64,000 bases of DNA from Methylobacterium sp. SyP6R (GTDB taxonomy: Bacteria; Pseudomonadota; Alphaproteobacteria; Rhizobiales; Beijerinckiaceae), in NCBI RefSeq assembly GCF_019216885.1, contig NZ_JAAQRC020000002.1, positions 507,001-571,000 of the forward strand. The letters are read 5' to 3'. Position numbers and translations under genes: made by a program. The notes beneath the pieces were generated by a model that saw only the letters and a list, made by a program, of their open reading frames with translations, was not told where the DNA came from and did no database searches. Position 1 is the first letter of the stretch, and each line of letters begins with the position of its first letter. Of this stretch, positions 8,064-51,871 are shown one piece after another.

Positions 8064-8077
8064 TTGATCGAGATCAA
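8064..8077. promoter_or_regulatory. FixK/FNR-type box TTGATCGAGATCAA
   Basis: This is a perfect dyad (TTGAT-CGAG-ATCAA) matching the FixK consensus TTG(A/C)-N6-(T/G)CAA. A class II promoter (box centred at -41.5) would start transcription near 8029 on the minus strand, about 25 nt before the gene starting at 8004. The rest of the gap (8005-8354) contains no gene. Confidence 0.65.
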
Positions 8078-8354
8078 GCTTCGCATCGCCGATCGCCGCG
8101 ATGGATCGTGCGCTGTCGCGACCCCGCAACGCGATCGGCAGGGCGCGTGACGGTCGCACCCGATCGAATGGCATTGTCAATATCACTGACGGACGCCGCA
8201 GATCGATTGCAATATAGGATGCCAAGAGTTAGCGTCATACAGCACAGAAAGTCGAAAACCGCTGGCGATGTGACGGTCTTGCGCCGTCGATCGCCACGAT
8301 TTCATTGATGGACTCCGCGGCCGCCACCCGGCCCGGCGCAGCATCGATCCGACC

Positions 8355-8582
8355 ATGGCCGATGACGGATTCTACGAGATCAGGATCATGACGGGAGCCG
8401 CGGGAGCGATCCTGCGCGCTGCCACCGAGCGCGCGGTGGCCACCAAGGCCGAGACCCTGATCCGCCGGGCCCATTCCCGCGGCGCCGCCATCGCGGTCGC
8501 GGTGATCGGCCGCGACGGCGAGGCCGTCCGCCGCCTCGAACTCTACCTCGCGGATGTCGTCTCCGACGTCGAACGCGCCTGA
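8355..8582 (+). CDS. Small hypothetical protein
   Basis: A 75-residue, mostly helical, soluble protein (MADDGFYEIRIMTG..., ending LYLADVVSDVERA). No domain recognised. Codon use fits the local coding pattern and no competing frame is better, but no strong ribosome-binding site precedes the ATG. It is transcribed divergently from the GCG_CRPN gene and shares the intergenic FixK-like box. Moderate confidence that it is a real gene. Confidence 0.5.
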   Translation: MADDGFYEIRIMTGAAGAILRAATERAVATKAETLIRRAHSRGAAIAVAVIGRDGEAVRRLELYLADVVSDVERA

Positions 8583-8720
8583 TCGCGGCCCTGCCTGGAT
8601 CCGACCCCGCCGCTTCGGCCCGCGCCGATACGCGGGACCGGATTCTGGTTGCCGCTCCAGGTGGTCGATCGTGGCGCATTTTTCTGCGACGAACCGGTAT
8701 CCACTTCGTCGAAAAATGCT

Positions 8721-12014: not shown

Positions 12015-12518
12015 TCAGGCCGCGAGCTTGACCGCGTGCTTGCTCTCGATGGTGCGGCGGATCAGGCGGCCGGTCCGCTCGATGAAGGCCATCTTGTCGG
12101 CCAGGCAGCTTTCCAGCAGGACGCCGACGCCGAAATGCCCGCTCACGTCGGCCATGGCGATCAGGGCCCGGTACTCGGCGATGCGCAGGTGCATCAGGTG
12201 GTTGGCCTTGACGAGGATGAACAGCGCCTTGGCCGCCGGTGCCTGGATCTCGGAGAGCTCGCGCCGGAAGTCCTCCATGAAGACCTCCTGCAGCCTTCCA
12301 TTGGCGGTGATCGGCTTCTCGCCGATCAGCTCGAAGCAGCGGTCGAGCGACTTGATGATCTTGTCCTGGATGAAGGCGCGCGACTGCAGCGCTTCCTGGA
12401 TGGCCGGATCCTGTGCGACCTGGCTCAGCTCGTCGTAGACCTTCGTCGCCCGCTCGGCATGGTGCCGCGCGTCGCTCAGCATCCGCACGAAGAGTTCCCT
12501 TGGTGTCTTGACCGGCAT
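12015..12518 (-). CDS. DUF892 (YciF-like) ferritin-fold protein
   Basis: A 167-residue all-helical protein. The N-terminal 'RELFVRMLSDARHHAERATKV' and the repeated helix-hairpin layout match the DUF892/YciF family, which adopts a ferritin-like four-helix bundle and is induced by stress in enterobacteria. Typical family length is about 165. It is preceded by a clear leader and lies 63 bp downstream of the ABC-membrane gene, likely co-transcribed. Metal binding is not certain: the carboxylate ligands are not unambiguous by eye. Confidence 0.78.
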   Translation of the reverse strand: MPVKTPRELFVRMLSDARHHAERATKVYDELSQVAQDPAIQEALQSRAFIQDKIIKSLDRCFELIGEKPITANGRLQEVFMEDFRRELSEIQAPAAKALFILVKANHLMHLRIAEYRALIAMADVSGHFGVGVLLESCLADKMAFIERTGRLIRRTIESKHAVKLAA

Positions 12519-12581: not shown

Positions 12582-13649
12582 CTAGGTCGCTTCGCGGCGG
12601 TTCGCTTGATCGGAGGTGACACGTCCGAGTGGTCCCGTGGCGAGCGGCCCTTCGGCGGGGCCCGCCGTCGCCCGGGCGATCAGGTCGTATTTCGTGCGCG
12701 TCACGCTCACGTCCCGGAACCAGCCGACGAGGTCGCCCCACGGGTCGTTCATGTGGGCGAGGCCCGACACGAAGGCCACCACCGTGCCGAGCTCCGCCCC
12801 GCCCGTCGCGACGGCGTAGCCGCCGACCGCCAGGATGCCGGCGACGCCGAGGTGGTAGGACAGGTTCATCAGGAAGTTCATCGAAAACTTGTAGCCGAAG
12901 ATGCCCATGTTCAGGCGGAACACGCCGTCGAGGCGGTCCAGCTCCGCCGGCGTCGGTCCCGGCAGCGCCGCCGGCCGTTCGACCAGCCCGCCGCTGATCC
13001 GGCGCAGCAGCCCGACCCGGGTGGCGACGCGGCGGTTGATCGCCCGCTGCATCAGCGGCACGAAGACGAGCTGGGGCGAGAACACCGCGAGCGTCACCAG
13101 GGCCATCGGCGGATGGAGGAGCGCCAGGTAGGTCAGCGTGGAGACGAGCACGCCCGCCTGCAGCAGCGGCTCCGACAGGCACACGCCGACGAAGCTGCCG
13201 ACCGGCTCGGCCTCGTCGAGCACCATCGCGATCTCGATGCCCCGATCCGGGCCGGAGGCGGCATGGACATCCGCCATGATCGCGGCGCGCAGGCGCCGGA
13301 CGGCGCGCTCGCCGACGAAGCCGCGGCCGAGATTGAGCGCGAGCTTGAGCCCGCCGAGGCCGGCCGCGGCCAGCACGTAGAGCAGGGCGAGGCCGAGGAG
13401 CGGGCGCGGATCGGCGCCGCGCACGGCGAGGCCCACCGCGCGGCGCTGGAGCTCGATCGGGGCGAGGCCCGCCAGGAACACCGCGACGGCGAGCAGCGCC
13501 AGCCCGGCCTGCGCGAGCGCGCTCTCCCGCCAGATGAAGGCGAGGAGACTGGGCGCCGTGCGGCGCGGGGCGGGGGAGGCGGTGTCGGACGGCTCCGGCC
13601 GCCGGGTCCGGGAGAGGTCGGCCAAGTCCGTATGCAGGCTCGTCGGCAT
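12582..13649 (-). CDS. ABC-transporter-type membrane domain protein lacking an ATPase domain
   Basis: A 355-residue protein with about six membrane helices typical of an ABC exporter transmembrane domain (type I), e.g. 'AQAGLALLAVAVFLAGLAPIE', 'LLGLALLYVLAAAGLGGLKL' and 'HLGVAGILAVGGYAVATGGA'. The sequence stops where the nucleotide-binding domain would begin: no Walker A, signature or Walker B motif is present and none is in the next frame. It starts a minus-strand operon with DUF892 and the four-TM protein, with a FixK-type box about 100 bp upstream (13751-13764). Either a separate ATPase is used or the domain serves a non-transport role. Confidence 0.8.
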   Translation of the reverse strand: MPTSLHTDLADLSRTRRPEPSDTASPAPRRTAPSLLAFIWRESALAQAGLALLAVAVFLAGLAPIELQRRAVGLAVRGADPRPLLGLALLYVLAAAGLGGLKLALNLGRGFVGERAVRRLRAAIMADVHAASGPDRGIEIAMVLDEAEPVGSFVGVCLSEPLLQAGVLVSTLTYLALLHPPMALVTLAVFSPQLVFVPLMQRAINRRVATRVGLLRRISGGLVERPAALPGPTPAELDRLDGVFRLNMGIFGYKFSMNFLMNLSYHLGVAGILAVGGYAVATGGAELGTVVAFVSGLAHMNDPWGDLVGWFRDVSVTRTKYDLIARATAGPAEGPLATGPLGRVTSDQANRREAT

Positions 13650-13750: not shown

Positions 13751-13764
13751 TTGAGGCGGATCAA
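13751..13764. promoter_or_regulatory. FixK-type box TTGAGGCGGATCAA (divergent promoter region)
   Basis: This is an exact match to TTG(A/C)-N6-(T/G)CAA. It lies between the minus-strand ABC-membrane gene (start 13649) and the plus-strand universal stress protein gene (start 13874), and overlaps the first copy of a 10-bp tandem repeat. Confidence 0.65.
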
Positions 13765-13800: not shown

Positions 13801-13814
13801 TTGCGCTGCATCAA
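13801..13814. promoter_or_regulatory. FixK-type box TTGCGCTGCATCAA before the universal stress protein gene
   Basis: This matches TTG(A/C)-N6-(T/G)CAA using the C variant. If it works as a class II activator site, transcription would begin near 13849, giving a leader of about 25 nt before the GTG at 13874. Confidence 0.6.
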
Positions 13815-13873: not shown

Positions 13874-14689
13874 GTGATCAAGGATCTGACGATCGTCGTC
13901 GACGGGGTGGGCCGGCGCGCCGCGCCGTACGGAATCAGGCTCGCGGCGCAGTTCGAGGCCTGCATCTCCGCCGTGAGCGTCCTGCCGCTCGTGCCGTTCC
14001 AGACCTTCGCGCAGGCCGAAATCCGCTACGACCTGGTCGTGGCCGCCGAGCAGGATGCCCGCGAGCAGGCCGATGCGGCGGTCGCGGCCGTGGCCGCCGC
14101 GGCCCAGGCCGCGGGCCTGTCCTGCGAGACGAGCGCGATCTGCACCTCGGCCCCGCTCGCGCCGCGGCGCCTCGCCGAGTTCGTCCACCTGAGCGACCTC
14201 GCGGTGATCGAGCAGGCCGACGACACCGCGCCCAAGCCCGCGGACGCCTATCTGGACGACCTCCTGTTCCAGGGCGCGCGCCCGGTGCTGGTGGTGCCCT
14301 ACATCCACGAGGCGCCGCCCCGGCTCGCCTGCGCGGTGGTGGCCTGGGACGGCAGCGCGCCCGCGGCGCGCGCCCTGAGCGACGCGATCCCGATCCTGCG
14401 CCGCACCGCCCGGGTCGAACTCGTCGGCGTGACCGACGAGCCGGTGCCGGAGGCGACGCGCTGGCGGGCGATCCGCCATCTCGCCCGGCACGGGATCGAG
14501 GCCACGGTCCACACGATCCCCGGCGGGGTGCCGGTGGCCGAGGCCCTGCTCTCGCACTGCGCCGATCGCGGGGCCGATCTCCTGGTGATGGGCGCCTACG
14601 GCCATTCGCGCCTGCGCGAGGCGATCCTCGGCGGGACCAGCCGGACGATTCTCGCCTCGATGACGGTCCCGGTGCTGATGTCGCGCTGA
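13874..14689 (+). CDS. Universal stress protein (UspA family, tandem domains)
   Basis: A 271-residue protein made of two Usp-like halves. The second half has the ATP-binding signature 'GADLLVMGAYGHSRLREAILGG...' with C-terminal 'MTVPVLMSR', as in UspA-fold proteins that bind ATP; the first half is degenerate. The start is a GTG at 13874 with GGGAG about 9 nt upstream; the frame is open further upstream but lacks support. Proteins of this size are induced under hypoxia and stress in alphaproteobacteria. Two FixK-type boxes upstream support oxygen control. Confidence 0.88.
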   Translation: MIKDLTIVVDGVGRRAAPYGIRLAAQFEACISAVSVLPLVPFQTFAQAEIRYDLVVAAEQDAREQADAAVAAVAAAAQAAGLSCETSAICTSAPLAPRRLAEFVHLSDLAVIEQADDTAPKPADAYLDDLLFQGARPVLVVPYIHEAPPRLACAVVAWDGSAPAARALSDAIPILRRTARVELVGVTDEPVPEATRWRAIRHLARHGIEATVHTIPGGVPVAEALLSHCADRGADLLVMGAYGHSRLREAILGGTSRTILASMTVPVLMSR

Positions 14690-14708: not shown

Positions 14709-14722
14709 TTGATGCACCTCAA
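14709..14722. promoter_or_regulatory. FixK-type box TTGATGCACCTCAA before hsp20
   Basis: An exact TTGA-N6-TCAA match. It is centred 83 bp before the Hsp20 start; a class II site would give a leader of about 42 nt. Confidence 0.6.
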
Positions 14723-14798: not shown

Positions 14799-15290
14799 AT
14801 GAATCTCAAATCCCTCCTCGCCTTCAACCGGGGCGACGACGCGGCGGAGCGGGCGCTGCCGGCCACGTTCCCGTTCCAGCGCGAGATCGACCGGATGCTG
14901 GGCGACGTCTGGTCCGGCAAGGTCCTGTCGGGCATGCCCGCCTTCCTCCAGGCCGGGCCGTTCCCGCGGATGGATGTGGTCGAGCGCGCCGACCACGTCG
15001 AGGTGACGGCCGAGCTGCCGGGCCTCGAGCGCGCCGACGTCCATATCGAGCTCGCCGACGACCTGCTCCTCATCCGCGGCGAGAAGCGCCAGGAGACGGA
15101 GGAGACGAACGGCGCCCGCAAGGTGACCGAGCGCAGCTACGGCGCCTTCTCGCGCACGATCGAGCTGCCGCCCGGAACCAGGCCGGAGGAGATCGACGCC
15201 CGGATGGACAAGGGTGTCCTGACCCTGAAGCTGCCGAAGCCCAAGACCGCCGCCGTCACCCCGAAGGCGATCGAGATCAAGGCGGCGTGA
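14799..15290 (+). CDS. Hsp20-family small heat-shock protein
   Basis: A 163-residue protein with a central alpha-crystallin domain (about residues 50-150): 'PRMDVVERADHVEVTAELPG', 'LLLIRGEKRQE', 'YGAFSRTIELPPG' and the beta-strand signature 'MDKGVLTLKLPK'. The C-terminal tail 'VTPKAIEIKAA' carries the short Ile-x-Ile-type anchor seen in oligomeric sHsps. It acts as an ATP-independent holdase for unfolding proteins in the cytoplasm. A FixK-type box is upstream, and the gene sits between USP and the CBS/phasin/ADH operon, so it probably belongs to a low-oxygen stress set rather than a simple heat-shock operon. Confidence 0.93.
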   Translation: MNLKSLLAFNRGDDAAERALPATFPFQREIDRMLGDVWSGKVLSGMPAFLQAGPFPRMDVVERADHVEVTAELPGLERADVHIELADDLLLIRGEKRQETEETNGARKVTERSYGAFSRTIELPPGTRPEEIDARMDKGVLTLKLPKPKTAAVTPKAIEIKAA

Positions 15291-15312: not shown

Positions 15313-16293
15313 TCACGGCACGAGCACCGCCGCTCCCTCGATCCCGGCCCGGTGCGCCGCGATGGCCGCCTCGGCTTGCATCAGGCGGAACACCCGGGTC
15401 CGGGTCGTGATCCCGGCCCGCGGTGCCAGGGCGAAGAAGTCCTTCGCATCCGCCCGCGTCAGGTTCGCCACCGAGAGGATCCGGCGCTCGCCCCAGAGCA
15501 GCGCGTAGGGGAAGGACGGGATGTCGCTCATGTGGATCCCGCCGCAGACCACGCTGCCGCCCTTGCGCACGGCCTTGAGCGCCGTCGGCACGAGGGCGCC
15601 GTCGGGCGCGAAGATCAGCGCGGCGTCGAGCGGGACCGGCGGCGGGGCATCCGAATCCCCGGCCCAGGCCGCGCCGAGGTCGCGGGCGAAGTCTTGCGCC
15701 TTGCGGTCGCCCGGCCGGGTGAAGGCGTGGACGACGCGGCCCTGGTGGCGGCAGATCTGGGCGACGATGTGCGCCGCCGCGCCGAAGCCGTAGAGGCCGA
15801 TCGCCGCCGCCTCGCCCGCCATCCGCAGGGTGCGCCAGCCGATCAGCCCGGCGCAGAGGAGCGGCGCCGTCGCGACCGGGTCGATGCCGTCGCCCAACGG
15901 GATGGTGTAGGCGGCCTCGGCCAGGACGTGGGAGGCGAACCCCCCGTCGCGGGTATAGCCGGTGAAGCCGGCTGCCTCGCACAGGTTCTCGCGGCCCGCC
16001 GCGCAATAGGCGCAATGTCCGCAGGTATGGCCGAGCCAGGGCAGGCCGACCCGGGCGCCGATCGCGGGCCCGGCCGTGCCGGCGCCCGCGGCCTCGACCC
16101 GGCCGACGATCTCGTGGCCGGGCACGATCGGCAGGCGGAGGTCCGGCAGGTCCCCGTCGATGACGTGGAGATCGGTGCGGCAGACCGCGCAGGCCTCGAC
16201 CCGGATGCGGACCTCGCCCGGACCCGGCACCGGATCGGGCCGGGTCTCGCGGACCAGCGGGCCGCCGATCCGGTGCAGGACCATCGCGTCCAT
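15313..16293 (-). CDS. Zinc-dependent alcohol dehydrogenase
   Basis: A 326-residue medium-chain dehydrogenase/reductase. Catalytic zinc ligands are visible as 'CAVCRTDLH' (Cys near residue 38) and 'GHEIVGRV' (His-Glu near 60); the structural zinc lobe is 'CGHCAYCAAGRENLC' (four Cys). The nucleotide-binding motif is 'GLYGFGAAAHI'. It matches AdhA/AdhP-like enzymes in the 320-345 residue range. It is the third gene of a minus-strand unit CBS-BON / phasin / ADH with short gaps, presumably driven from the FixK-like site at 17594. A role in redox balance under low oxygen (aldehyde reduction) is inference. Confidence 0.9.
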   Translation of the reverse strand: MDAMVLHRIGGPLVRETRPDPVPGPGEVRIRVEACAVCRTDLHVIDGDLPDLRLPIVPGHEIVGRVEAAGAGTAGPAIGARVGLPWLGHTCGHCAYCAAGRENLCEAAGFTGYTRDGGFASHVLAEAAYTIPLGDGIDPVATAPLLCAGLIGWRTLRMAGEAAAIGLYGFGAAAHIVAQICRHQGRVVHAFTRPGDRKAQDFARDLGAAWAGDSDAPPPVPLDAALIFAPDGALVPTALKAVRKGGSVVCGGIHMSDIPSFPYALLWGERRILSVANLTRADAKDFFALAPRAGITTRTRVFRLMQAEAAIAAHRAGIEGAAVLVP

Positions 16294-16322
16294 TGTTTCG
16301 GCCTCTCCGGCACTCGCGCGGC

Positions 16323-16670
16323 TCAGGCCGTGACGGACCGGGCCGCCTTGCCGGATTCGGGCACGGCGGTGTCGACCACGTCGCGGGAGAGCGTGTCCGC
16401 CTCGCGCTGGTAGTCGGTGAGCGTCTTCATCACGAAGTCCGCCTGGAGCTTGAGCGTCTCGGCGGGCGAGCCGCAGCGGCCGAGCGCCGCGACGTGCTCG
16501 GCCTGCGCCTGGAGGCGCCGGCTGCCGAAGCTCAGGATCTCGGCGGTGAGCCGCAGCGGCAGGTCGACGCCGAGGCTGCGCCAGAGCTTGGATTCGGTGG
16601 TCAGCAGAGCGGACATGTCGCCGAAGCCGGCGAGCCGGGGCGTCTCGCTGCCCATAGTTCTGGATGCCAT
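16323..16670 (-). CDS. Phasin-family protein
   Basis: A 115-residue amphipathic helical protein with no signal sequence. 'LWRSLGVDLPLRLTAEILSF', 'AQAEHVAALGRC' and 'ADFVMKTLTDYQREADTLSR' fit the phasin_2 family, small proteins coating polyhydroxyalkanoate granules and often co-induced with stress genes. GGAG lies 8 nt before the ATG at 16670. It lies 79 bp after the CBS-BON gene and 29 bp before ADH in the same transcription unit. Confidence 0.82.
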   Translation of the reverse strand: MASRTMGSETPRLAGFGDMSALLTTESKLWRSLGVDLPLRLTAEILSFGSRRLQAQAEHVAALGRCGSPAETLKLQADFVMKTLTDYQREADTLSRDVVDTAVPESGKAARSVTA

Positions 16671-16749
16671 GGTGATCTCCTGGTCGCGTCGCGTCCGGGG
16701 TGGACGTCCTGCCGCGCGGGGTGGACGCTGGGAACGCCGCACGGGTTTG

Positions 16750-17502
16750 TCAGGCGGCGCGCACGCCGCCATCCGGTCCGTCGCCCGGCGGCGGATCGGC
16801 GCCGTTCGTCCGGGCATCGATGGAGGCCAGCCCGTCGCGGACCATCTGCACCCCGGACACCGACTCGGCCGCCGCCCGGATCGCGGCGCGCTGGCGCTCG
16901 CCGACCAGCGTCCCGTGCAGGGTGACCGTGCCGTCCACCACCGCGACGGAGATCCGGCCTGCGGGGAAAAGGCCCGTCTCGGCGATGGCCGCTTCGACGG
17001 TGGCGCGGATCTCGGCATCGCTCCGGGCGGATGGGCTCGGCGTCGTCGCGCGGGATCGCCCGAGGGCCGCATGCAGGGCCCGCAGGAGATCGGCCCGGGC
17101 GACGATCCCGGCGAGCCGTCCCTGCGCGACGACCGGCAGGCGCCGGATGCGGTGGCGCGCCATCAGCGCGGCGGCCTCGGCGAGCGTCGCCTCGGGCGAG
17201 ACGGTGACGAGGGCGCGGGTCATCACGTCGGAGACGCCCCGCCCGTGCTCCCGGGCATAGGTCTCGGCCAGGCGGCCCGGATCGACGATGTACTGGATCC
17301 AGCCGGGCTGCGGCGGGGCGGTGTCGAGTTCGCGGCGCCTCAGGAAGTCGCCCTCGCTGACGAGGCCGACGAGGGCGCCGGCGCGATCGAGGACGGGCAG
17401 GCCGCTGACCCGCCGCTCCAGCATCAGGGCGATGGCCGCCTCGATCGCAGCATCGTCCTGCACGGTCGCGACCTCGCGGGTCATCACGTCACGCACGATC
17501 AT
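16750..17502 (-). CDS. CBS-pair and BON-domain protein
   Basis: A 250-residue protein. Two CBS motifs are evident: 'IVRDVMTREVATVQDDAAIE' to 'GLVSEGDF' and 'VSDVMTRALVTVSPEATLAE' to 'GIVARADLL', forming an adenine-nucleotide-binding Bateman module. The last about 80 residues are a BON domain ('DAEIRATVEAAIAE...VVDGTVTLHGTLVGERQRAAI'). This combination is common in alphaproteobacterial stress proteins. The ATG at 17502 is chosen over a GTG one codon upstream because GGAGG is then 5 nt away. First gene of a unit with phasin and ADH. Confidence 0.88.
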   Translation of the reverse strand: MIVRDVMTREVATVQDDAAIEAAIALMLERRVSGLPVLDRAGALVGLVSEGDFLRRRELDTAPPQPGWIQYIVDPGRLAETYAREHGRGVSDVMTRALVTVSPEATLAEAAALMARHRIRRLPVVAQGRLAGIVARADLLRALHAALGRSRATTPSPSARSDAEIRATVEAAIAETGLFPAGRISVAVVDGTVTLHGTLVGERQRAAIRAAAESVSGVQMVRDGLASIDARTNGADPPPGDGPDGGVRAA

Positions 17503-17593: not shown

Positions 17594-17607
17594 TTGATCT
17601 GGATCAG
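17594..17607. promoter_or_regulatory. FixK/FNR-like site TTGATCTGGATCAG
   Basis: This has one mismatch to the dyad TTGAT-N4-ATCAA (final A to G). It lies 92 bp upstream of the CBS-BON start; a class II site would start transcription near 17559. Confidence 0.5.
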
Positions 17608-20465: not shown

Positions 20466-21053
20466 TCACCGCGAGAGGGCCGGCGCGGCCTGTGCCTCGC
20501 CGAACAGGCCGACCCCGAGCCAGGACAGGCCGGTGCCCAGGAGGTCGCAGGAGACGAACAGCCCGATCGCCCACAGGCCGGAATACGGCCACTGCCCGAT
20601 GATGGCGGCGCCCAGCAGCACCGAGAGCACGGAGAACAGGATCACGGCGGCGCGGGACGTCCGCATCTCGTGGGCGGCGGCCCAGATCGCCCGCGCCACG
20701 CCCGAGGCGATCAGGGTTGCCCCGAGAACGAGCGTGAGGGCGAGCGAGGCCTCGAGGGGCCGGAAGACCGCGTAGAGCCCGCCGATGAGATACATCAGGC
20801 CGGCCAGGAAGCGCCCGATGCGGGAGCTGAGCGCTTCCGCCTCGTCGGACCGCGCGAGGGCTTCGACGATCTCGACGATGCCGGCGACGAGCAACAGGAT
20901 GCCGAACCACAGCGTGCTGGCGATCGTCAGCGTCGTGACCATGAACAGGCCCGCGGCACCGAGGAGCAGCAAGGCGCAGCCGATCGCGATGAACCATCCA
21001 CGGTCGCGCCCCGCGCCGAGCGGCGACCGATCGAAGATTGCCGAACCGCTCAT
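20466..21053 (-). CDS. HdeD-family (DUF308) membrane protein
   Basis: A 195-residue protein of six hydrophobic helices in three hairpins ('GWFIAIGCALLLLGAAGLFM', 'LWFGILLLVAGIVEIVEAL', 'AGLMYLIGGLYAVFRPLEAS', 'LTLVLGATLIASGVARAIWA' and two more), the DUF308/HdeD pattern of acid-resistance membrane proteins. Family function is poorly defined beyond acid-stress association. An FNR/FixK dyad lies 85 bp upstream (21138-21151), and a class II start would give a leader of about 50 nt. Confidence 0.87.
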   Translation of the reverse strand: MSGSAIFDRSPLGAGRDRGWFIAIGCALLLLGAAGLFMVTTLTIASTLWFGILLLVAGIVEIVEALARSDEAEALSSRIGRFLAGLMYLIGGLYAVFRPLEASLALTLVLGATLIASGVARAIWAAAHEMRTSRAAVILFSVLSVLLGAAIIGQWPYSGLWAIGLFVSCDLLGTGLSWLGVGLFGEAQAAPALSR

Positions 21054-21137: not shown

Positions 21138-21151
21138 TTGATGTGGATCAA
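21138..21151. promoter_or_regulatory. FNR/FixK-type box TTGATGTGGATCAA between hdeD-like and mscS-like genes
   Basis: A perfect dyad (TTGAT-GTGG-ATCAA) located between divergent genes. Spacing fits the minus-strand HdeD-like gene well (predicted leader about 50 nt); for the plus-strand MscS-like gene the predicted start of transcription (about 21186) would leave only 8 nt before the ATG at 21194. Confidence 0.62.
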
Positions 21152-21193: not shown

Positions 21194-23191
21194 ATGGCCG
21201 AGGGGCTCGTCGGAGACGGGACATCCCCTGCCGTGTTCGATCGCCGCCGCCCGCGCCCGACCTGCCCCCGGCTTCCGGCCTCGGCTTCCCTTGTCCTCAT
21301 CCTCATGACCGTGGAGGGCCGCGCGGCGTCCACGCATGCCGACTGGTCCGAGGCGGTGGTCGAGCCGGTCGACCGGGCCGTGGCGGCGTTCTCCGGCGGG
21401 CTGCGGGCGCGGCTCGACCAGATGATGGCGGCCGGCACCGATCTCGACCTCGTCCGCTCCACCCTCGCCGCCGCCGACTGGTCGCCGATGCCGCTCCTGG
21501 CCGGGATCGCGGCCGTGCTGGTCGCGGGCCTCGCGGCATACCGGCTGACGGCCCGCACCCATGGCGACGCCGTCGGGGGAGCGAGCGGGAGGTTTCTCGC
21601 ACGCCGCGTCCTCGCCGCCGCCGCCGCGCTGGCCGCCGGCCTCGTCGCCGCCACCCTCGTCGCCGGGGAGGCGGAGGCCGTCCGTCGCACCTTGCGCGCC
21701 TGGGCCCTCGTCGTCCCGCTCGCCGGGCTCGCCGCGTCGCTGATCCGGGCCGCGATCCTGGAGCGATCCGCCGCCCCGCACCGCAAGCGTCTCGGTCCGC
21801 TGGCGCGGGACCTTACCGTGGCGGTGACCTGGGCGCTCGGCGGCATCGCCCTCCTGAGGACGCTGGCGATCTGGGAGGCCGGCAGCGGCCTGCGCGACCT
21901 CGTCGGGACGGCGTTCGTGGCGCTGCCGACCGCCTGCCTGATCGCGGGCGCCTATCTGCGCTCCGGCCGGCCGCTCGCCGCCGCGCTCGCCGGACCGCGT
22001 CCGCGCAGCGGGGCGCGGCGCCTCCTCGCCCGGTGCTGGCCGGTCGCCGCCGTCGCCGTCGTCGCGGTGACACTCGCGGCCTCGCAGGTGGCGACGACGC
22101 TCGGGCGCCCGCTCCCGCCGCTCGCGACCCTGGTCACGCTGGTCCTCGTGCTGACCTGGCCGCATTGCGACGGGCGGATCGCCGCCTGGGCCGAACGGGG
22201 TTTCCAGGTCGAGACGGTCCCGGCGGCGGCGGTCGCGGCCCGCCGCACCGCCCGGATGGCGCTCGCCGCGGTGATCGGCGCGGCGCTCGCCGCCCTGTGG
22301 GGGGCGCCCGCCGCCCTCGGTCTCGGCATCGCGGTCGGAACGCTCGCCCGGACCCTGATGGAGATCGCCGCCGTCGCGCTCGCCACCGCCTATCTGTGGA
22401 ACGTGATCGGGGTCGCCGCCGGCCGGCTCCTGGCCGGGGAGCGGGGCGCGGGGGCGGAATCCGGGGGCGAGGAGGCCGAGGAGGCGCCGCGGACGCGCCT
22501 CGGCACGGTCCTGCCCCTGCTCGCCGGGGCGGCGAAGGCGGGGCTCGCCGCGCTCGCGGTCCTGTCGGTCCTCCTGGCGCTCGGGATCAACGTCTGGCCC
22601 CTGGTCACCGGGCTGTCGGTGTTCGGCCTCGCCATCGGCTTCGGCTCCCAATCCCTGGTCAAGGACGTGGTGTCGGGCCTGTTCTTCCTTGCCGACGACG
22701 CCTTCCGCCTCGGCGAATACATCGAGACCGCCGGCGCCAAGGGCAGCGTGGAGAAGATCTCGATCCGCTCGGTCTCGCTGCGCCATCCTCGCGGCGCGCT
22801 CGCGACCATCCCCTACGGCCAGATCGGCAAGGTGCAGAACTACAGCCGCGACTGGGTCATCGAGAAGCTGGCCTTCCGGGTCGCCTTCGACACCGACGTC
22901 GAGAAGGTGCGCCGGCTGTTCAAGCAGATCGGCCGGGACCTCGAGGCCGATCCGGAGTTGCGCCCGGATCTGCTGGAGCCGTTCAAGAGCCAGGGCATCG
23001 CCGCGGTCGAGGACGGGACGCTGGTCATCCGGGGCAAGTTCAAGGCCCGCGCCGGGCGGCAATTCGCGATTCGGAAGGCCGTGCTGGCGGCGGTGCAGCG
23101 GGCCTTCCACGACAACGGCATCGTCGCGGTCGCGCATCCGAGCCTGATGCCCGGCACGCGCGGCCCACTGGCAGAGCACGCCGCCCGCTGA
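21194..23191 (+). CDS. MscS-family mechanosensitive channel
   Basis: A 665-residue protein with a possible signal peptide, multiple membrane helices between about residues 90 and 480, and the conserved MscS core: the pore helix and following beta domain 'GLSVFGLAIGFGSQSLVKDV', 'FFLADDAFRLGEYIE', 'IPYGQIGKVQNYSRDWV'. It is much larger than E. coli MscS (286 aa), like YbdG/MscM-type channels with extra helices. It acts as a tension-gated solute release valve. The start is uncertain: ATG 21194 has no clear ribosome-binding site and a GTG at 21232 would also yield a signal-bearing product. Confidence 0.87.
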   Translation: MAEGLVGDGTSPAVFDRRRPRPTCPRLPASASLVLILMTVEGRAASTHADWSEAVVEPVDRAVAAFSGGLRARLDQMMAAGTDLDLVRSTLAAADWSPMPLLAGIAAVLVAGLAAYRLTARTHGDAVGGASGRFLARRVLAAAAALAAGLVAATLVAGEAEAVRRTLRAWALVVPLAGLAASLIRAAILERSAAPHRKRLGPLARDLTVAVTWALGGIALLRTLAIWEAGSGLRDLVGTAFVALPTACLIAGAYLRSGRPLAAALAGPRPRSGARRLLARCWPVAAVAVVAVTLAASQVATTLGRPLPPLATLVTLVLVLTWPHCDGRIAAWAERGFQVETVPAAAVAARRTARMALAAVIGAALAALWGAPAALGLGIAVGTLARTLMEIAAVALATAYLWNVIGVAAGRLLAGERGAGAESGGEEAEEAPRTRLGTVLPLLAGAAKAGLAALAVLSVLLALGINVWPLVTGLSVFGLAIGFGSQSLVKDVVSGLFFLADDAFRLGEYIETAGAKGSVEKISIRSVSLRHPRGALATIPYGQIGKVQNYSRDWVIEKLAFRVAFDTDVEKVRRLFKQIGRDLEADPELRPDLLEPFKSQGIAAVEDGTLVIRGKFKARAGRQFAIRKAVLAAVQRAFHDNGIVAVAHPSLMPGTRGPLAEHAAR

Positions 23192-23232: not shown

Positions 23233-23246
23233 TTGACCTGGCTCAA
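23233..23246. promoter_or_regulatory. FixK-type box TTGACCTGGCTCAA before the aquaporin gene
   Basis: An exact TTGA-N6-TCAA match, centred 118 bp upstream of the aquaporin ATG; a class II site would give a leader of about 77 nt. Confidence 0.62.
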
Positions 23247-23357: not shown

Positions 23358-24092
23358 ATGGACATCCGCAAATGCACCGCCGAGGCGATCGGCACCTTCT
23401 GGCTCACCTTCGCCGGCTGCGGCAGCGCCGTCATCGCCGCCGCCTTCCCGCAGGTCGGTATCGGGCTCCTCGGCGTCGCGCTCGCCTTCGGTCTCACCGT
23501 CGTCACCATGGCCTACGCGATCGGCCACATCTCGGGCTGCCACCTCAACCCGGCGGTGACGATCGGGCTTGCGGCCGGAGGCCGGTTTCCCGCCCACGAC
23601 ATCGCGCCCTACGTGATCGCGCAGGTTCTCGGCGGCCTCGTCGCGGCGGCTCTGCTCTACGCGATCGCCGCCGGCGCGCCCGGCTTCGACCTCGCCAAGG
23701 GCTTTGCGGCCAACGGCTACGGCGAGCACTCGCCCGGGCAGTATTCCCTGATGTCCTGCCTCCTCGCCGAGGTGGTGCTGACGGCGATGTTCCTGTTCGT
23801 GATCATGGGGGCGACCCACGGCAAGGCGCCGGTGGGCTTTGCGCCCCTGGCGATCGGCCTGTGCCTGACCCTCGTCCACCTCGTCGGCATCCCGATCACC
23901 AACCTGTCGGTCAATCCGGCCCGCAGCACCGGCCCGGCCGTGTTCGTAGGCGGATGGGCGCTGGCGCAGCTGTGGCTGTTCTGGGTCGCGCCGATCGCCG
24001 GCGGGGTCCTGGGCGGCGTCCTCTACCGCGCGATGAGCGAGGAGCCCCCGGTCCAGGTCGCCGGCATGGCACCGCCCGCCCCGGCGGAGTGA
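23358..24092 (+). CDS. aqpZ: Aquaporin Z
   Basis: A 244-residue six-helix channel. Both NPA loops are present ('HLNPAVTIG', Asn64-Pro-Ala; 'SVNPARSTG', Asn186-Pro-Ala), and the selectivity-filter positions His174 and Arg189 match those of E. coli AqpZ, indicating a water-selective rather than glycerol-conducting channel. GGAGG lies upstream of the ATG. It precedes the FGE/arylsulfatase pair on the same strand and has its own FixK-type box. Confidence 0.94.
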
Positions 24093-24152
24093 GCCGGGAT
24101 CGGAACCCCGACGACCCCGACGACCCGATCCGAAGACGCCGAGGAGCGAGCG

Positions 24153-25124
24153 ATGCCGCACGCGATTCCCCTCGACCGCCCCGACGCACCGCCGGCACGG
24201 GACGACATGGTCTTCCTGCCCGGCGGAACCTTCCGCATGGGCTCGGACCGCCACTATCCCGAGGAGGCGCCGGTCCACCGCGTCGCCGTCGACGGGTTCT
24301 GGATCGACCGCACGCCGGTCACGAATGCCCGGTTCCGCGCCTTCGTGCGGGCGACGGGCCACGTGACGCTCGCCGAGCGGGCGCCGCGCGCCGCGGATTA
24401 TCCGGGCGCGCTCCCGCACAAGCTGAAGCCGGGCTCGCTCGTGTTCAAGCCGCCGAAGGGACCGGTCGACCTGCGCAACCCCCTCGCCTGGTGGCGCTTC
24501 CGGCCCGGCGCGCATTGGCGCTGCCCGCTCGGGCCCGGCTCCTCGATCGCCGGCCTCGACGACCATCCGGTGGTGCACGTCGCCTATGCCGATGCCGCGG
24601 CCTACGCGGCCTGGGCCGGCAAGGCGCTGCCGACCGAGGCGGAATGGGAATACGCGGCGCGCGGCGGCCTCGACGGGGCCGAATTCGCCTGGGGCGACAC
24701 GCTCGTGCCGGGCGGGCGGCACCGGGCCAATACCTGGCAGGGCGCCTTCCCGTACGAGAACTCGGCCGAGGACGGCTACGAGCGCACCTCGCCGGTCACC
24801 GCCTTCCCGCCGAACGGCTACGGCCTGCACGACATGATCGGCAACGTCTGGGAGTGGACCGCCGATTTCTTCGTGCCGCGCCACCCCGACGAGGCGCCGG
24901 GCGCCTGCTGCATTCCCCGGAACCCTCGCGGGGGCCGGGAGGACGCGAGCTACGATCCGGGCGAGCCCGCGGGTCCCATCCCGCGCCGGGTGCTCAAGGG
25001 CGGCTCGCATCTCTGCGCGCCGAATTACTGCCGCCGCTACCGCCCGGCGGCGCGCCACCCCCACCCGGTCGATACCTCCACGAGCCATGTCGGCTTCCGC
25101 TGCGTCGAGAGGAGAGGGCCATGA
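24153..25124 (+). CDS. Formylglycine-generating enzyme (sulfatase-modifying factor)
   Basis: A 323-residue SUMF1/FGE-sulfatase-domain protein. Motifs include 'VFLPGGTFRMGSD' (start of the domain), 'LPTEAEWEYAARGG', 'DMIGNVWEWT' and the catalytic block 'GGSHLCAPNYCRRYRPAAR', in which Cys288 and Cys293 correspond to the copper-binding pair of aerobic FGE. It oxidises the Cys in CxPxR/CxAxR of type I sulfatases to formylglycine. Its stop overlaps the ATG of the arylsulfatase (ATGA), so enzyme and client are translationally coupled. The requirement for O2 is notable beside FixK-type boxes. Confidence 0.93.
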   Translation: MPHAIPLDRPDAPPARDDMVFLPGGTFRMGSDRHYPEEAPVHRVAVDGFWIDRTPVTNARFRAFVRATGHVTLAERAPRAADYPGALPHKLKPGSLVFKPPKGPVDLRNPLAWWRFRPGAHWRCPLGPGSSIAGLDDHPVVHVAYADAAAYAAWAGKALPTEAEWEYAARGGLDGAEFAWGDTLVPGGRHRANTWQGAFPYENSAEDGYERTSPVTAFPPNGYGLHDMIGNVWEWTADFFVPRHPDEAPGACCIPRNPRGGREDASYDPGEPAGPIPRRVLKGGSHLCAPNYCRRYRPAARHPHPVDTSTSHVGFRCVERRGP

Positions 25125-26839
25125 CGGAGCAACGACTGACGGAGCAACGACTGACGGAGCAACGACCGGCGGATCCAGGATCGGCAGACGCCGCCCACCG
25201 CGCGGGCGACTCCGACGGGATCCTCGACCGCCGCCGCATCCTGCTCGGCGGGACCGCGCTCGCCGCCGCGATGGCGGGGACCGGGGCCGTGCCGGCGCGA
25301 GCCCAGCAGCCTGCCCCGGCGCCCCAGCCGGCGCCGCTCCGGCCCGCCGGCGCGGGCCGTCCCGTCAACATCCTGGTGATGTTCGGCGACGACGTCGGGC
25401 AGTCGAACATCAGCGCCTACACCTTCGGCCTGGTGGGCTACCGAACGCCCAACATCGACCGGATCGCCCGCGAGGGCATGATCTTCACCGATTACTATGC
25501 CGAGCAGAGCTGCACGGCGGGCCGCTCCACCTTCATCACCGGGCAGGCGACCTTGCGCACCGGCCTGTCGAAGGTCGGCGTGCCCGGCGCGACGGTCGGG
25601 CTGCAGAAGGAGGACGTGACGCTCGCCGAACTGCTCAAGCCGCTCGGCTACGCCACCGGCCAATTCGGCAAGAACCACCTCGGCGACCGCGACGAGTTCC
25701 TGCCGACGAAGCACGGCTTCGACGAGTTCTTCGGCAACCTCTACCACCTCAACGCCGAGGAGGAGCCGGAGCAGCGGACCTATCCGCGCGACCCCGCCTT
25801 CCGCAAGCGGTTCGGGCCGCGCGGCGTGCTGCGCGCCTCGGCCGACGGCCGGATCGAGGATACCGGCCCGCTGACCCGCAAGCGCATGGAGACGATCGAC
25901 GACGAGACCTCGGCGGCGGCGATCGACTTCATGCAGCGGCAGGTGCGGGCGAACACACCCTTCTTCTGCTGGTTCAACGCGACCCGGATGCACTTCCGCA
26001 CCCATGTCGCCGAGAGCCGACGCAGCCCGCCGGGCCTGACCGCGCGCACGGAATACGCCGACGGCATGGTCGAGCATGACGGCCATGTCGGCCGGCTCCT
26101 GAAGGCGCTCGACGAGCTCGGCATCGCGAACGACACCATCGTGCTCTACACGACCGACAACGGCCCGCACCTGAATTCCTGGCCGGACGCGGCGGTCACG
26201 CCGTTCCGGAGCGAGAAGAACACCAACTGGGAGGGGGCCTTCCGGGTGCCCTGCATGATCCGCTGGCCGGGCCGCATCCAGGCGGCGTCGGCCTCGAACG
26301 AGATCGTCAGCGGCCTCGACTGGCTGCCGACCCTGATGGCCGCCGCCGGCGAGCCCGACATCGTCGCCAAGCTCCTGACGGGCTACGGCGTCGGCCCGCG
26401 GACCTTCCGGGTCCATCTCGACGGCTACAACCAGCTTCCCTACCTCACGGGACGGCAGGAGCGCGGGGCGCGCAACTCGTTCTTCTACTTCAACGACGAC
26501 GGCGATCTCGTCGGACTGCGCTACGAGAACTGGAAGCTCGTGTTCGAGGAGCAGCGGGCGCCGGGAACCCTGCGGGTCTGGGCCGAGCCGTTCACCCGCC
26601 TGCGCGTCCCCAAGCTGTTCGACCTGCGGGCCGATCCGTACGAACGCGCCGACGTCACGTCGAACACCTATTACGACTGGTTCCTGTCGCAGCCCTATCT
26701 CGTCTTCGCGGCGCAGGCCGAGGTCGCGAAGTTCCTGGCGACGTTCCGGGACTTCCCGCCGCGCCAGCGCGCCGCGAGCTTCAGCGTCGACCAGATCATC
26801 GAGCAGATGCAGAAGTCGATGGAGGCGTCGGGCCAATGA
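25121..26839 (+). CDS. Type I (formylglycine) arylsulfatase, Tat-exported
   Basis: A 572-residue sulfatase. After an N-terminal leader with three TEQRL repeats comes a Tat-like signal ('LDRRRILLGGTALAAAMAG', cleavage near Ala61). The core has 'NILVMFGDDVG' (metal Asp pair), the modification site 'SCTAGRSTF' (Cys131-x-Ala-x-Arg), 'GQFGKNHLGD' and 'LYTTDNGPHLNSWPD'. The motif is C-x-A-x-R rather than C-x-P-x-R, accepted by many bacterial FGEs. It hydrolyses organic sulfate esters in the periplasm. The ATG overlaps the FGE stop, and the first 40 nt of the gene form a 15-bp tandem repeat. Confidence 0.93.
   Translation: MTEQRLTEQRLTEQRPADPGSADAAHRAGDSDGILDRRRILLGGTALAAAMAGTGAVPARAQQPAPAPQPAPLRPAGAGRPVNILVMFGDDVGQSNISAYTFGLVGYRTPNIDRIAREGMIFTDYYAEQSCTAGRSTFITGQATLRTGLSKVGVPGATVGLQKEDVTLAELLKPLGYATGQFGKNHLGDRDEFLPTKHGFDEFFGNLYHLNAEEEPEQRTYPRDPAFRKRFGPRGVLRASADGRIEDTGPLTRKRMETIDDETSAAAIDFMQRQVRANTPFFCWFNATRMHFRTHVAESRRSPPGLTARTEYADGMVEHDGHVGRLLKALDELGIANDTIVLYTTDNGPHLNSWPDAAVTPFRSEKNTNWEGAFRVPCMIRWPGRIQAASASNEIVSGLDWLPTLMAAAGEPDIVAKLLTGYGVGPRTFRVHLDGYNQLPYLTGRQERGARNSFFYFNDDGDLVGLRYENWKLVFEEQRAPGTLRVWAEPFTRLRVPKLFDLRADPYERADVTSNTYYDWFLSQPYLVFAAQAEVAKFLATFRDFPPRQRAASFSVDQIIEQMQKSMEASGQ
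25122..25162. repeat. 2.7 x 15-bp in-frame tandem repeat at the arylsulfatase start
   Basis: The unit TGACGGAGCAACGAC begins within the start codon and repeats without change, giving TEQRL-TEQRL-TEQR as the first residues after Met. Being 15 bp, copy-number changes keep the frame. Confidence 0.92.
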
Positions 26840-31522: not shown

Positions 31523-31945
31523 ATGCCGAGCGCCATGCCGAGCCCCATCTCGACCCCTGCGCCGCGCCTCTCTCCCATCTACGTCGTCGACGACGATCCG
31601 GCGATCCTGCACTCGACCCGCTTCCTGTTCGAGTGCGAGGGGCACCGCGTCGAGACCTTCGCCAGCGGGCCCGAGCTCCTGTCGGCCTTCCCCGGACCGT
31701 GCCCGCTCTGCGTGCTGCTCGACCAGGTGATGCCGGGGATGGACGGGCTCGAGGTCTGCCGGCGCCTGCGGCTCCTCGATGCCGCCGTGCCGGTGATCCT
31801 GATCACCGGTCATCCCGACCCGCGCATCCGGGCCCGGGCCCGGGATGCCGGCGTGCCGCTCATCGACAAGCCGCTCGCCTTCGAGGCCTTCGTCGGCCTC
31901 CTCGCGGCCGGCCGCATCGCACCGGACCCTCACGGCCATGCATGA
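31523..31945 (+). CDS. Stand-alone receiver domain protein (FixJ-like receiver)
   Basis: A 140-residue protein consisting of one receiver domain: 'IYVVDDDPAILHS', Asp67 in 'VLLDQVMPGMDG', 'VILITGHPD' and Lys in 'LIDKPLAFEAF'. No output domain. Receiver-only proteins beside FixLJ can act as phosphate sinks or antikinases (like FixT in function, though FixT is not a true phospho-receiver). The start at 31523 is weakly supported; an internal ATG at 31535 is possible. A FixK-type box upstream would make it part of a negative feedback circuit; that is inference. Confidence 0.86.
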   Translation: MPSAMPSPISTPAPRLSPIYVVDDDPAILHSTRFLFECEGHRVETFASGPELLSAFPGPCPLCVLLDQVMPGMDGLEVCRRLRLLDAAVPVILITGHPDPRIRARARDAGVPLIDKPLAFEAFVGLLAAGRIAPDPHGHA

Positions 31946-32100: not shown

Positions 32101-32114
32101 TTGATCCAGCGCAA
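32101..32114. promoter_or_regulatory. Possible FixK-type site TTGATCCAGCGCAA at the edge of the 14-bp array
   Basis: It fits the looser consensus TTGA-N6-GCAA. No intact gene follows for several hundred bases, so function is doubtful; the 3' half-site is the first bases of the tandem array. Confidence 0.3.
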
Positions 32115-32516: not shown

Positions 32517-32639
32517 GCGAGACGAGGCCGTAGGCGATGCAGACCGGCCGGGCGGGCAGCACGTAGACCCGGAGCAGGATCTGAAGGGCGCCTGCCCCCT
32601 CGACCCGGGCCGCATCGTCGAGCGCGCGGGACGGACTTG

Positions 32640-49289: not shown

Positions 49290-49305
49290 GACATCCTCCT
49301 TGGTC

Positions 49306-50508
49306 TCAGGGCACCGTCAGGCGCGCATCGTCGAGCACCTCGTGCATCCCGCTGGCGATCGTCGCCTCCTCGTCGGTCGGGACGACGTAGGCCTGGGGGC
49401 CGGAGCCGGCGCTGATCCGGGAAGCGCCCGCCGCGTTCGCGGCCGCGTCGAGCCGGAATCCGGCCCAGGCGGCGCCCCGCAGCACCTCGGCCCGGGTCGC
49501 GGCGTCGTTCTCGCCGATGCCGCCGGTGAAGACGAGGCCGTCGATCCCGCCGAGCGCCGCGACGAGCGAGCCGAGCTCGCGCCCGATGCGGTAGACGAAG
49601 AGGTCGATGGCCATCCGCGCACGCCGGTCCTCGGCGGCGCGGGCGCGCAGCACCCGCATGTCGTTCGACAGGCCGGAGACGCCGAGCAACCCTGAGCGGG
49701 TGTAGAGCAGGTGCTCCGCCGCCTGGACGTCGAGCTGCATCTCCCGCATGAGGTAGAACACCACGCCCGGATCGAGGCTGCCGCAGCGGGTGCCCATCGG
49801 CAGCCCGTCGAGGGCCGAGAAGCCCATCGTGGTGGCGACGCTGCGACCGCCCGCCAGCGCGCACAGGCTCGCGCCGCTGCCGAGATGGGCCACGACCACC
49901 CGGCCCTCCGCGAGGCCGGGCGCGCAGGCGGCGAGCTGCCCGGCGACGAAGGCATAGGACAGGCCGTGGAAGCCGTAGCGGCGCACGCCCCGGTCGGTGA
50001 TCTCGGCCGGCAGCGCGAAGAGCTGCGCGACCTCCGGCTGGCCGCGGTGGAAGGCGGTGTCGAAGCACGCCACCTGCGGCAGGTCCGGAAACAGCCGCCG
50101 CAGGATGCGGACCGGCGCGAGGTTGTGCGGCTGGTGCAGGGGCGCGAGCGGGACGAGGCGTTCCAGCGCCGCCAGCACCGCGTCGTCGATCCGCACGGGC
50201 GCGGCGTAATCCGCGCCGCCATGCACGACCCGATGCCCGACCGCCGCCAGCCGGTGCCCGCTCCGATGCTCCCGCAGCCACGCGGCGACGTGGAGAAGGG
50301 CCTCCTCGTGACCGAATTCGCCCGCCCCGAACCGCTCCTCGGCGACGACCGCGCCGGTCCGATCGTGCACGACCATGTGCGCCGCGCCGCCGAGCCCCTC
50401 GAAGAGGCCGCGGGAGAGGCGGTGCGGCACGCCGTCCCCTCCCGGCTCGAACACCTGGAACTTGAGGCTCGACGAGCCCGCATTCAGCACGAGGTAGGCC
50501 GGGATCAT
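49306..50508 (-). CDS. ackA: Acetate kinase
   Basis: A 400-residue ASKHA-fold kinase. Signatures: 'YLVLNAGSSSLKFQVFE' (N-terminal phosphate motif), 'AVGHRVVHGGADY', 'ACFDTAFHRGQPEVAQLFAL', 'RYGFHGLSYAFVA', 'VVVAHLGSGASLCAL' (phosphate 2) and 'GLVFTGGIGENDAATRAEVL' (adenosine). It interconverts acetyl phosphate + ADP and acetate + ATP. The ATG overlaps the phosphotransacetylase stop (ATGA), so the pair is translationally coupled and allows substrate-level ATP formation when oxygen is short. Confidence 0.95.
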   Translation of the reverse strand: MIPAYLVLNAGSSSLKFQVFEPGGDGVPHRLSRGLFEGLGGAAHMVVHDRTGAVVAEERFGAGEFGHEEALLHVAAWLREHRSGHRLAAVGHRVVHGGADYAAPVRIDDAVLAALERLVPLAPLHQPHNLAPVRILRRLFPDLPQVACFDTAFHRGQPEVAQLFALPAEITDRGVRRYGFHGLSYAFVAGQLAACAPGLAEGRVVVAHLGSGASLCALAGGRSVATTMGFSALDGLPMGTRCGSLDPGVVFYLMREMQLDVQAAEHLLYTRSGLLGVSGLSNDMRVLRARAAEDRRARMAIDLFVYRIGRELGSLVAALGGIDGLVFTGGIGENDAATRAEVLRGAAWAGFRLDAAANAAGASRISAGSGPQAYVVPTDEEATIASGMHEVLDDARLTVP

Positions 50509-51464
50509 CCCTGGACCCCCGGCCGCGGTGTTTCGGCGCGACGGCCCGCGGCGAACAGCGAGGCGACGGCGCAGGAGGCGAGCCGCGTCAGGCGCGAATC
50601 GGCCCGGCTCGTCAGGATGATCGGCACCCGGGCGCCGAGCACGATCCCGGCGGCGTCCGCGTCGGCAAGGAAGGTCAGGCTCTTGGCCAGCATGTTGGCG
50701 GCTTCGAGATCCGGCACCACCAGCACGTTGGCGCGGCCGGCGACCGGCGACTGGATCTGCTTGATCGCCGCCGCGCCGCGATCGATGGCGTTGTCGAGGG
50801 CGAGCGGCCCGTCGAGGACCGCCCCGGTGATCTGGCCGCGATCGGCCATCTTGCACAACGCGGCGGCATCGAGGGTCGAGGGGACCTTCGGGTTGACCGT
50901 CTCCATCGCCGACACGATCGCGACCCGCACCACCTCGATCCCGAAGGAATGGGCGAGGTCGATGGCGTTCTGGACGATGTCGCGCTTCTCCTCGAGCGTC
51001 GGGGCGATGTTGATCGCGGCATCGGTGACGATGAGGGGATCGTCGTGGCCCGGCACGTCCATCACGAAGCAGTGGCTCAGGCGGCGCTCCGTCCGCAGCC
51101 CACCCTCGCGCCGCACTACCGCGCCCATCAGCTCATCGGTGTGGAGGCTGCCCTTCATCAGCGCGCCGGCCTCTCCGGCCCTCACCAGCGCCACCGCCCT
51201 GTCGGCGGAATCGTGGCTATGGGCCGATTCGACGATGCGGAACGCCGCCAGATCCCGCCCGCAGGCCGCCGCCGCGATCCTCGGCCGGGGCCCGACCAGG
51301 ACCGGGGTGATCAGCCCGAGATCCGCCGCCTCCAGCGCGGCGCCGAGCGAGGCCTCGTCGCAAGGGTGCGCGACCGCGACCGTGAGGCGGGGCCGCGCCT
51401 GCGCGGCGGCGATCAGACGGTCGTACTTCTCGTGCCGGCGGCGGGCCGGGGCCTCCTGGGTCAT
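50505..51464 (-). CDS. pta: Phosphate acetyl/butyryltransferase
   Basis: A 319-residue PTA_PTB-family enzyme of the short type, lacking the regulatory N-terminal domains of long Pta. Visible features: 'EAADLGLITPVLVGPRPRIA', 'AGALMKGSLHTDELM', 'SHCFVMDVPGHDDPLIVTDA' and 'AAINIAPTLEEKRDIVQNAI', 'LALDNAIDRGAAAIKQIQSP'. It exchanges phosphate for CoA on acetyl-CoA (or butyryl-CoA). The ATG at 51464 with GGGGGAG upstream is preferred to a longer form at 51506. A FixK-type box lies about 230 bp upstream. Confidence 0.92.
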   Translation of the reverse strand: MTQEAPARRRHEKYDRLIAAAQARPRLTVAVAHPCDEASLGAALEAADLGLITPVLVGPRPRIAAAACGRDLAAFRIVESAHSHDSADRAVALVRAGEAGALMKGSLHTDELMGAVVRREGGLRTERRLSHCFVMDVPGHDDPLIVTDAAINIAPTLEEKRDIVQNAIDLAHSFGIEVVRVAIVSAMETVNPKVPSTLDAAALCKMADRGQITGAVLDGPLALDNAIDRGAAAIKQIQSPVAGRANVLVVPDLEAANMLAKSLTFLADADAAGIVLGARVPIILTSRADSRLTRLASCAVASLFAAGRRAETPRPGVQG

Positions 51465-51871
51465 CGGGCGCTCCCCCGGGTTGGGCGGGCCCGGACCCGC
51501 CGGCAATGTCGCAGGGACCGCGCCCGACCGCTTGATCGGGTGGGACGCGGACCGGCCTCGTGCCGGACGAGCCCGCGCCTCCCGGCGCGACAGGTCGTAC
51601 GCGTCGCTGCCATGTGGTCCTCTCGTGACGTCCCGGAGCGCGGCTCGACCCCGAGGCGCAACGGGACGTCAGGATGCGGGGCGAGGCGAACGGCGCGTTG
51701 ACCTGCCTCAAGGACGTGGGCGGTCCTGCATCCAGGATGCGGGACGAGGACACGTCGCGGCGTCGAGGCGTGACGCGTGCAGGTGTCAAATCCCGATCAG
51801 CGTGTTGCTGCTCAGGCGCCATCGAGATGGACAAGACCGTATCCTGCTCCGACCGGGAATCCGGACCGACG
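51465..51871. other. Divergent intergenic region with FixK-type box
   Basis: About 400 bp between pta (minus) and the AI-2E family gene (plus). It contains TTGACCTGCCTCAA at 51698-51711. No other gene is supported; the upstream extension of the AI-2E frame (from 51674) would begin within the box and is unlikely to be translated. Confidence 0.55.
51698..51711. promoter_or_regulatory. FixK-type box TTGACCTGCCTCAA between pta and the AI-2E permease gene
   Basis: An exact TTGA-N6-TCAA match. It could serve either direction; predicted leaders (about 126 nt rightward, about 199 nt leftward) are longer than for the other boxes. Confidence 0.55.

Follow-up and report, generated by a model that had tools for sequence, protein, structure and literature searches.

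Boxes and genes around fixLJ

The subject of this work is a 64-kb stretch of DNA from Methylobacterium sp. SyP6R (the window), in which genes for FixL and FixJ lie among FixK/FNR-type boxes. The window is C2:507001-571000, where C2 is contig NZ_JAAQRC020000002.1 (743 kb) of a 7.5 Mb genome in six contigs; C1 is the chromosome. We searched with a loose pattern, TTGM-N6-KCAA, and a strict one, TTGA-N6-TCAA. The initial annotation had listed eight exact matches to the loose pattern, and the search returned all of them at the same coordinates. Four more exact sites start at 2888, 4516, 28746 and 32101. Eight of the resulting 12 sites are strict and none lies inside a gene, as judged from two simple gene calls and the curated gene list. 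A further site at 17594, correctly described before as having one mismatch, reads TTGATCTGGATCAG.

The fixL gene (29205..30761, plus strand) encodes PAS, HisKA and HATPase domains and is overlapped by fixJ (30758..31435, plus). FixJ scores 271.9 bits against NF006900, over the cut-off of 255; the best NCBIfam score of FixL, 687.6 bits, is under the model cut-off of 850. Counted on the sequence, the previously noted His205 of FixL is present and an arginine follows 20 residues further on (Arg225). We take this spacing to be that of FixL. A strict box (31441..31454) separates fixJ from a lone receiver gene (31535..31945, or 31523-31945 for the longer frame; plus; PF00072).

Most other boxes precede genes for stress and membrane proteins. 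The first strict box of this series (8064..8077) precedes a GCG_CRPN-type secreted protein gene (7654..8004, minus; NF047412). Next is a gene for an ABC-transporter-type membrane protein (12582..13649, minus), with a DUF892 gene (12015..12518, minus) 63 bp behind it. The Pfam search gave no match for the ABC-type protein; its relative in M. nodulans is annotated as an ABC transporter ATP-binding protein. Between the ABC-type gene and a universal stress protein gene, usp (13874..14689, plus; PF00582), are a strict box (13751..13764) and a half-type box (TTGC-N6-TCAA; 13801..13814) in the same promoter region. The hsp20 gene (14799..15290, plus; PF00011) follows a strict box at 14709..14722. CBS-BON, phasin and alcohol dehydrogenase (ADH) genes (15313..17502, minus) lie behind the degenerate box (17594..17607). 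A strict box (21138..21151) is placed between a DUF308 (HdeD-like) gene (20466..21053, minus) and a gene for an MscS-type channel (21305..23191, plus). Another (23233..23246) precedes aquaporin (MIP), FGE-type and sulfatase genes (23358..26839, plus), which, from their spacing and shared strand, form a possible operon. Profile searches supported the gene names Usp, DUF892, ADH, phasin, CBS-BON, DUF308, MscS, MIP, FGE and sulfatase, and likewise AckA, Pta, AI-2E, Hsp20, GCG_CRPN, FixL and FixJ.

The strict box TTGACATGGATCAA (4516..4529), not listed in the initial annotation, and the site at 2888 are both beyond the island that aligns with strain DB0501 (below). The half-type box TTGATCCAGCGCAA (32101..32114) lies where collinearity with DB0501 stops. 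Starting at the end of this box is a perfect 14-bp tandem repeat of 29.1 copies (32111-32518); the doubled repeat unit was absent from all other loci fetched up to that comparison. The weakly supported strict box at 51698..51711 is between the pta and AI-2E genes. In the same half of the window (46900-48758), a DUF3141 gene matching only positions 1-387 of 582 lies directly against a piece that resembles the C-terminal part of an enoyl-ACP reductase (profile from 128); the junction looks like a deletion joint.

Enrichment, conservation and geometry of the boxes

The 12 exact sites of the window compare with a mean of 0.75 and a maximum of 4 in 100 dinucleotide shuffles. The comparison with intergenic expectation suggested in the initial annotation, run for the window, placed strict boxes far above a per-segment first-order Markov model: its 13.8 kb of intergenic DNA holds 8, against a mean of 0.058 and a maximum of 2 in 1000 runs. 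The window also contains 8 of the 13 strict sites of C2, or 12.5 per 100 kb versus 0.74 elsewhere on this contig (Poisson P 4e-8, for a window chosen after the fact). For loose sites the share is 12 of 39 (P 1.5e-5). C2 includes three 5-kb runs of N. Sampling of 19 stretches of C1, including one chosen for its CRP-type genes, gave 0.79 strict sites per 100 kb. Genome-wide there are 228 loose sites versus 166 for a mirrored control, and 47 strict sites versus 19. The 47 comprise 32 on C1, 13 on C2 and single sites on C3 and C5. Chromosomal ccoN (TIGR00780, 751.3 bits, cut-off 583.15) served as a positive control and has a strict box 104 nt ahead of it.

Relatives of FixL were found at no fewer than 571 loci, with the best matches in Methylobacterium. 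The best 80 of these at least 571 neighbourhoods (1.42 Mb) contain 195 strict boxes, versus 0-9 for each of nine permuted palindromes. Half-type sites, sampled from the 80 loci, the window and the island stretches, are stereotyped; TTGCGCTGGATCAA accounts for 47 of 148 nonredundant sites versus 17.6 expected with independent columns. A strict box some 200-270 nt ahead of fixL, where the window has 28746, occurs in several relatives other than DB0501 and M. tarhaniae C117. A lone receiver follows fixJ in 49 of 78 scorable loci, and a strict or half-type box is there in 38 of the 49. The order fixL, fixJ, receiver also occurs on an M. currus plasmid (NZ_CP089298.1; L356, 2427-5043), where a strict box at 2859 separates fixJ from the receiver.

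Individual boxes were followed in orthologues, using 500 bp upstream of each gene in up to 30 loci from 99 genomes of the genus. Where identity is at least 49%, 10 of 12 loci have the strict box between the ABC-type gene and usp; where it is 35% or less, 0 of 15 do, and 3 loci were not scorable. The MscS box is found in 4 of 6 loci with identical sequence. The nine permuted patterns summed gave 5 matches for the ABC-type gene, 0 for MscS, 3 for aquaporin and 1 for Pta. The corresponding island of DB0501 has counterparts of boxes 8064 (one base different), 13751, 14709 (identical), 21138 and 31441, and, by position, of 17594 and 32101. Boxes 13751, 14709, 21138 and 31441 are also kept in the M. 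tarhaniae contig C117 and in 6HR-1; of these, 14709 is identical in both and 13751 has one base changed in 6HR-1. A scan of a 20-kb stretch that contains the second aquaporin copy of the source genome (89% identical) showed no box.

Promoter geometry was assessed with 232 nonredundant strict boxes from the 80 FixL loci, the window and the island stretches, counting both sides. TANNNT hexamers begin 21 nt past the box in 17 cases and 22 nt past it in 10, where the mean per position is 2.09. No peak at 21-22 nt was seen with four control palindromes, which had 6 to 37 nonredundant sites. If the hexamer is a −10 element, box centres would be near −41. The pooled loci support class II FNR/FixK geometry as an average. 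Toward the neighbouring plus-strand gene, only window boxes 23233 (TACGAT, gap 22) and 21138 (TACGAT, gap 24) are followed by a hexamer that matches TATAAT at 4 of 6 positions. Taken together, box enrichment, −10 spacing and conservation support, at the level of sequence, a FixK/FNR-type regulon around FixLJ in the window.

A chromosomal fixK and two complementary island fragments

FixK is absent from the window, as the initial annotation had it. We located a fixK-type gene on the chromosome (C1:3381752-3382456), within a second fragment of the same island. C1 has every one of the 17 CRP-type HTH matches that exceed the Pfam cut-off. M. tarhaniae, DB0501 and 6HR-1 each have a gene near fixLJ whose product is 84-86% identical to the fixK-type one. 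In the sample of 99 genomes, which includes the source genome, FixK was found at 1e-50 in 35 and FixL at 1e-150 in 42. Among the 33 genomes with FixL of at least 67% identity, FixK is on the same contig and within 11 kb in 27 (counted by eye). The six exceptions are the source genome, two genomes with no FixK listed (G096 and G082) and three with FixK on another contig (G047, G071 and G098), where some of the copies sit at contig ends.

The main target of FixJ is described as fixK, reached through an 18-bp palindrome, and fixK was present in all fixLJ genomes studied there (passages of PMC4999443). Upstream of fixK, we found exact TACGTA before YCC(T/G)TA in 20 of 31 regions. Two features of the source genome proved not to be unique to it. 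Four other regions, like its own, match the TACGTA core at 5 of 6 bases, and the box before fixK has half-type equivalents at −238 to −248 in 5 of 30 other upstream regions.

The arrangement of the island was examined by aligning the intact DB0501 copy (C76:164104-203737) with the source genome. Six blocks alternate between C1 and C2 with zero overlap. DB0501 164104-166514, including fixK, matches C1. The adjoining block, 167912-177655 (receiver, fixJ, fixL, MucR, MscS, HdeD-like and alkyl sulfatase), matches C2, and 177737-181966 (usp, P-type ATPase and the first CBS-BON gene) matches C1. Block 182010-186836 (second CBS-BON gene, phasin, ADH, hsp20, usp and ABC-type) is on C2; 189015-193133 (kinase-like and cation ATPase genes) is on C1; and 193372-203737, from DUF892 to AcrB, is on C2. 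Gene order is kept within blocks, except for the HlyD-AcrB end and a 0.37-kb piece, which lie elsewhere in the window. The ackA gene of DB0501 matches that of the window at 74% and is a paralogue. One 189-bp DB0501 match to C1 falls outside the island range. Between the window and C1:3330001-3430000 we found four matches of 65 to 123 bp, and no 500-bp match joins this part of C1 to C2. A RepB-like frame on C2 shares 42% identity with the one on an M. currus plasmid. Hence, we take C2 for a megaplasmid. Among plasmid records, 91 had some match and none covered 80% of the query.

At three joints, a gene stripped of its old neighbourhood is now beside or behind another FixK-type box. On C2, the degenerate box 17594 occupies the place of DB0501 box C76:177679, which precedes the usp gene retained on C1; the CBS-BON, phasin and ADH genes are now behind it. 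In DB0501, the DUF892 gene comes with a box of its own (C76:193310), and none is present here between DUF892 and the ABC-type gene. On C1, fixK has the usp box (3381598) some 150 nt upstream. FixK boxes coincide with several alignment ends. We make no claim that these were recombination points, since a conserved box is also a natural stop for intergenic alignments.

Regulatory model, alternatives and known systems

We consider it probable that the window carries most of a FixLJ-FixK low-oxygen stress island, located on C2 and served in trans by fixK on the chromosome. From knowledge of the families, heme-bound FixL would phosphorylate FixJ when oxygen drops. FixJ would then activate chromosomal fixK through a site of the TACGTA-N4-YCCTTA type. 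FixK, perhaps with an FNR-type protein, would bind the TTGA-N6-TCAA boxes of both contigs, C1 and C2, bringing in RNA polymerase from about −41. The genes raised would include usp, hsp20, CBS-BON, phasin, ADH, HdeD-like, MscS, aquaporin and the lone receiver. The response to oxygen, the regulator bound at the boxes, the operons and the origin by duplication and reciprocal loss are what we infer. In sum, the oxygen-limitation regulon of the initial annotation stands as to FNR/FixK-type boxes in promoter position by FixLJ, average class II geometry, enrichment in fixL neighbourhoods and conservation of several boxes; part of its membership is weaker.

The following observations qualify this reading or weigh against it. 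The aquaporin box is rare: of 30 orthologous loci, 4 have a strict box. Upstream of Pta, any strict box occurs in 5 of 30 loci, and the nearest orthologue (92% identical) is without one, so the pta-ackA/AI-2E box is a weak member. Neither DB0501 nor M. tarhaniae C117 has a counterpart of box 28746. Most individual window boxes are without a good −10 element at the expected distance. A simple gene call puts 16 of the 34 strict sites outside C2 within coding DNA, the other 18 being intergenic. The FixJ-like site before fixK has a core changed by one base, to TCCGTA. When up to 2 mismatches are allowed, the FixJ-like pattern occurs twice in the genome, the better match being at fixK, and its reversed control occurs 5 times. 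Hence, we reject genome-wide enrichment of such sites, and only its place supports the one at fixK. C1 also encodes an FNR-type protein and a second FixK-like protein. The closest NCBIfam scores of these two and of the fixK product (closest model FixK, 228.6 bits, cut-off 300) are under the curated cut-offs. In addition, C1 has a second FixLJ pair (about 64 and 61% identical), some 10 kb away from the ccoN gene with the strict box (L308 14975-17111, C1:909975-912111, and L332 2112-3743). The extra FixLJ pair, FixK-like protein and FNR-type protein make the acting regulator ambiguous, and sites of this kind do not separate FixK from FNR-type regulators.

The regulator that chiefly acts on the boxes might instead be the FNR-type Fe-S protein (C1:5698260 region) or the adjoining second FixK-like protein, with the FixLJ linkage historical. 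The FNR-type frame has C-X2-C-X7-C, two strict boxes lie between the FNR-type and second FixK-like genes, and FnrN and FixK sites are described as indistinguishable in passages of PMC4999443. Conversely, fixK adjoins fixLJ in most relatives with the same FixL and has a FixJ-like site, and we regard this explanation as unlikely. Another lone receiver preceded by a strict box (L064 9802-10295) is found between the FNR-type and FixK-like genes. A box cluster due to chance or base composition could account for unsupported members such as 28746, the weak 51698 and the strict sites in coding DNA. It is opposed by the shuffles, the Markov model, the density on C2, the permuted palindromes and conservation; we reject chance clustering as extremely improbable.

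The complementary, order-keeping fragments would be read most simply as duplication followed by reciprocal loss. We propose tentatively, at somewhat less than an even chance, that the cascade was duplicated onto the megaplasmid and sorted in this way, so that the window FixLJ (C2) and fixK (C1) tie plasmid to chromosome while the regulon is kept. Under the same proposal, the losses would have kept CBS-phasin-ADH in the regulon behind 17594, and DUF892 behind the ABC-type gene with 13751; fixK would have come to lie beside the usp box at C1:3381598, which may add autoregulation. The two-replicon layout could instead stem from several segment moves between replicons, or exchange with other strains, which is possible but doubtful. 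No overlapping copies are left and trees do not split C1 from C2 genes by descent, as this origin would allow. Islands have also been acquired from outside, as in M. tarhaniae, which has two FixLJ-FixK islands (C117, L252; C458, L305); G052 likewise carries two FixL-FixK pairs. Against segment moves, order is kept and blocks are interleaved on both contigs, and several ordered moves would be needed. Since C1 and C2 island genes are about equally distant from DB0501 (86-92%) and the C117 copy groups with 6HR-1 in trees, the trees neither prove nor exclude duplication with reciprocal loss. The same grouping leaves the two M. tarhaniae islands unsupported as a direct intermediate of the split. 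In an empty-site search for the C1 fragment in ten genomes, the best matches of the flanks were on different contigs or about 0.5 Mb apart (G036).

These results give sequence support to a FixLJ-linked FixK/FNR regulon in Methylobacterium that extends past respiration into stress and membrane genes. They also offer a case of one regulatory cascade seemingly divided between chromosome and megaplasmid. If this is true, how replicons depend on one another and what becomes of a duplicated regulon could be tested in laboratory strains that grow in culture.

The regulon resembles that of FixLJ-FixK2 in Bradyrhizobium diazoefficiens. According to the parts of PMC6515984 consulted, Usp, CBS-domain, Hsp20, alcohol dehydrogenase and response-regulator proteins are induced there at low oxygen, as predicted here, and several are marked as direct FixK2 targets. 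The mechanosensitive channel and aquaporin, both preceded by boxes here, have 0 occurrences in its main text. A conserved FixK regulon has been predicted for a Rhizobiales group including Methylobacterium; aquaporin has 0 occurrences in that account, and its available passages mention no replicon split (PMC2908626). Searches of literature that left out most subscription journals found no described Methylobacterium FixK island. FixT is a single receiver in the FixLJ regulon and a feedback inhibitor of FixL (PMC7078487, in part). The window likewise has a lone receiver, with a box, after fixJ; it might similarly inhibit FixL. What is new is the chromosomal place of fixK, inside the other fragment of this island. 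Unlike in B. diazoefficiens, the fixK-type gene is on another replicon than the FixLJ pair of the window.

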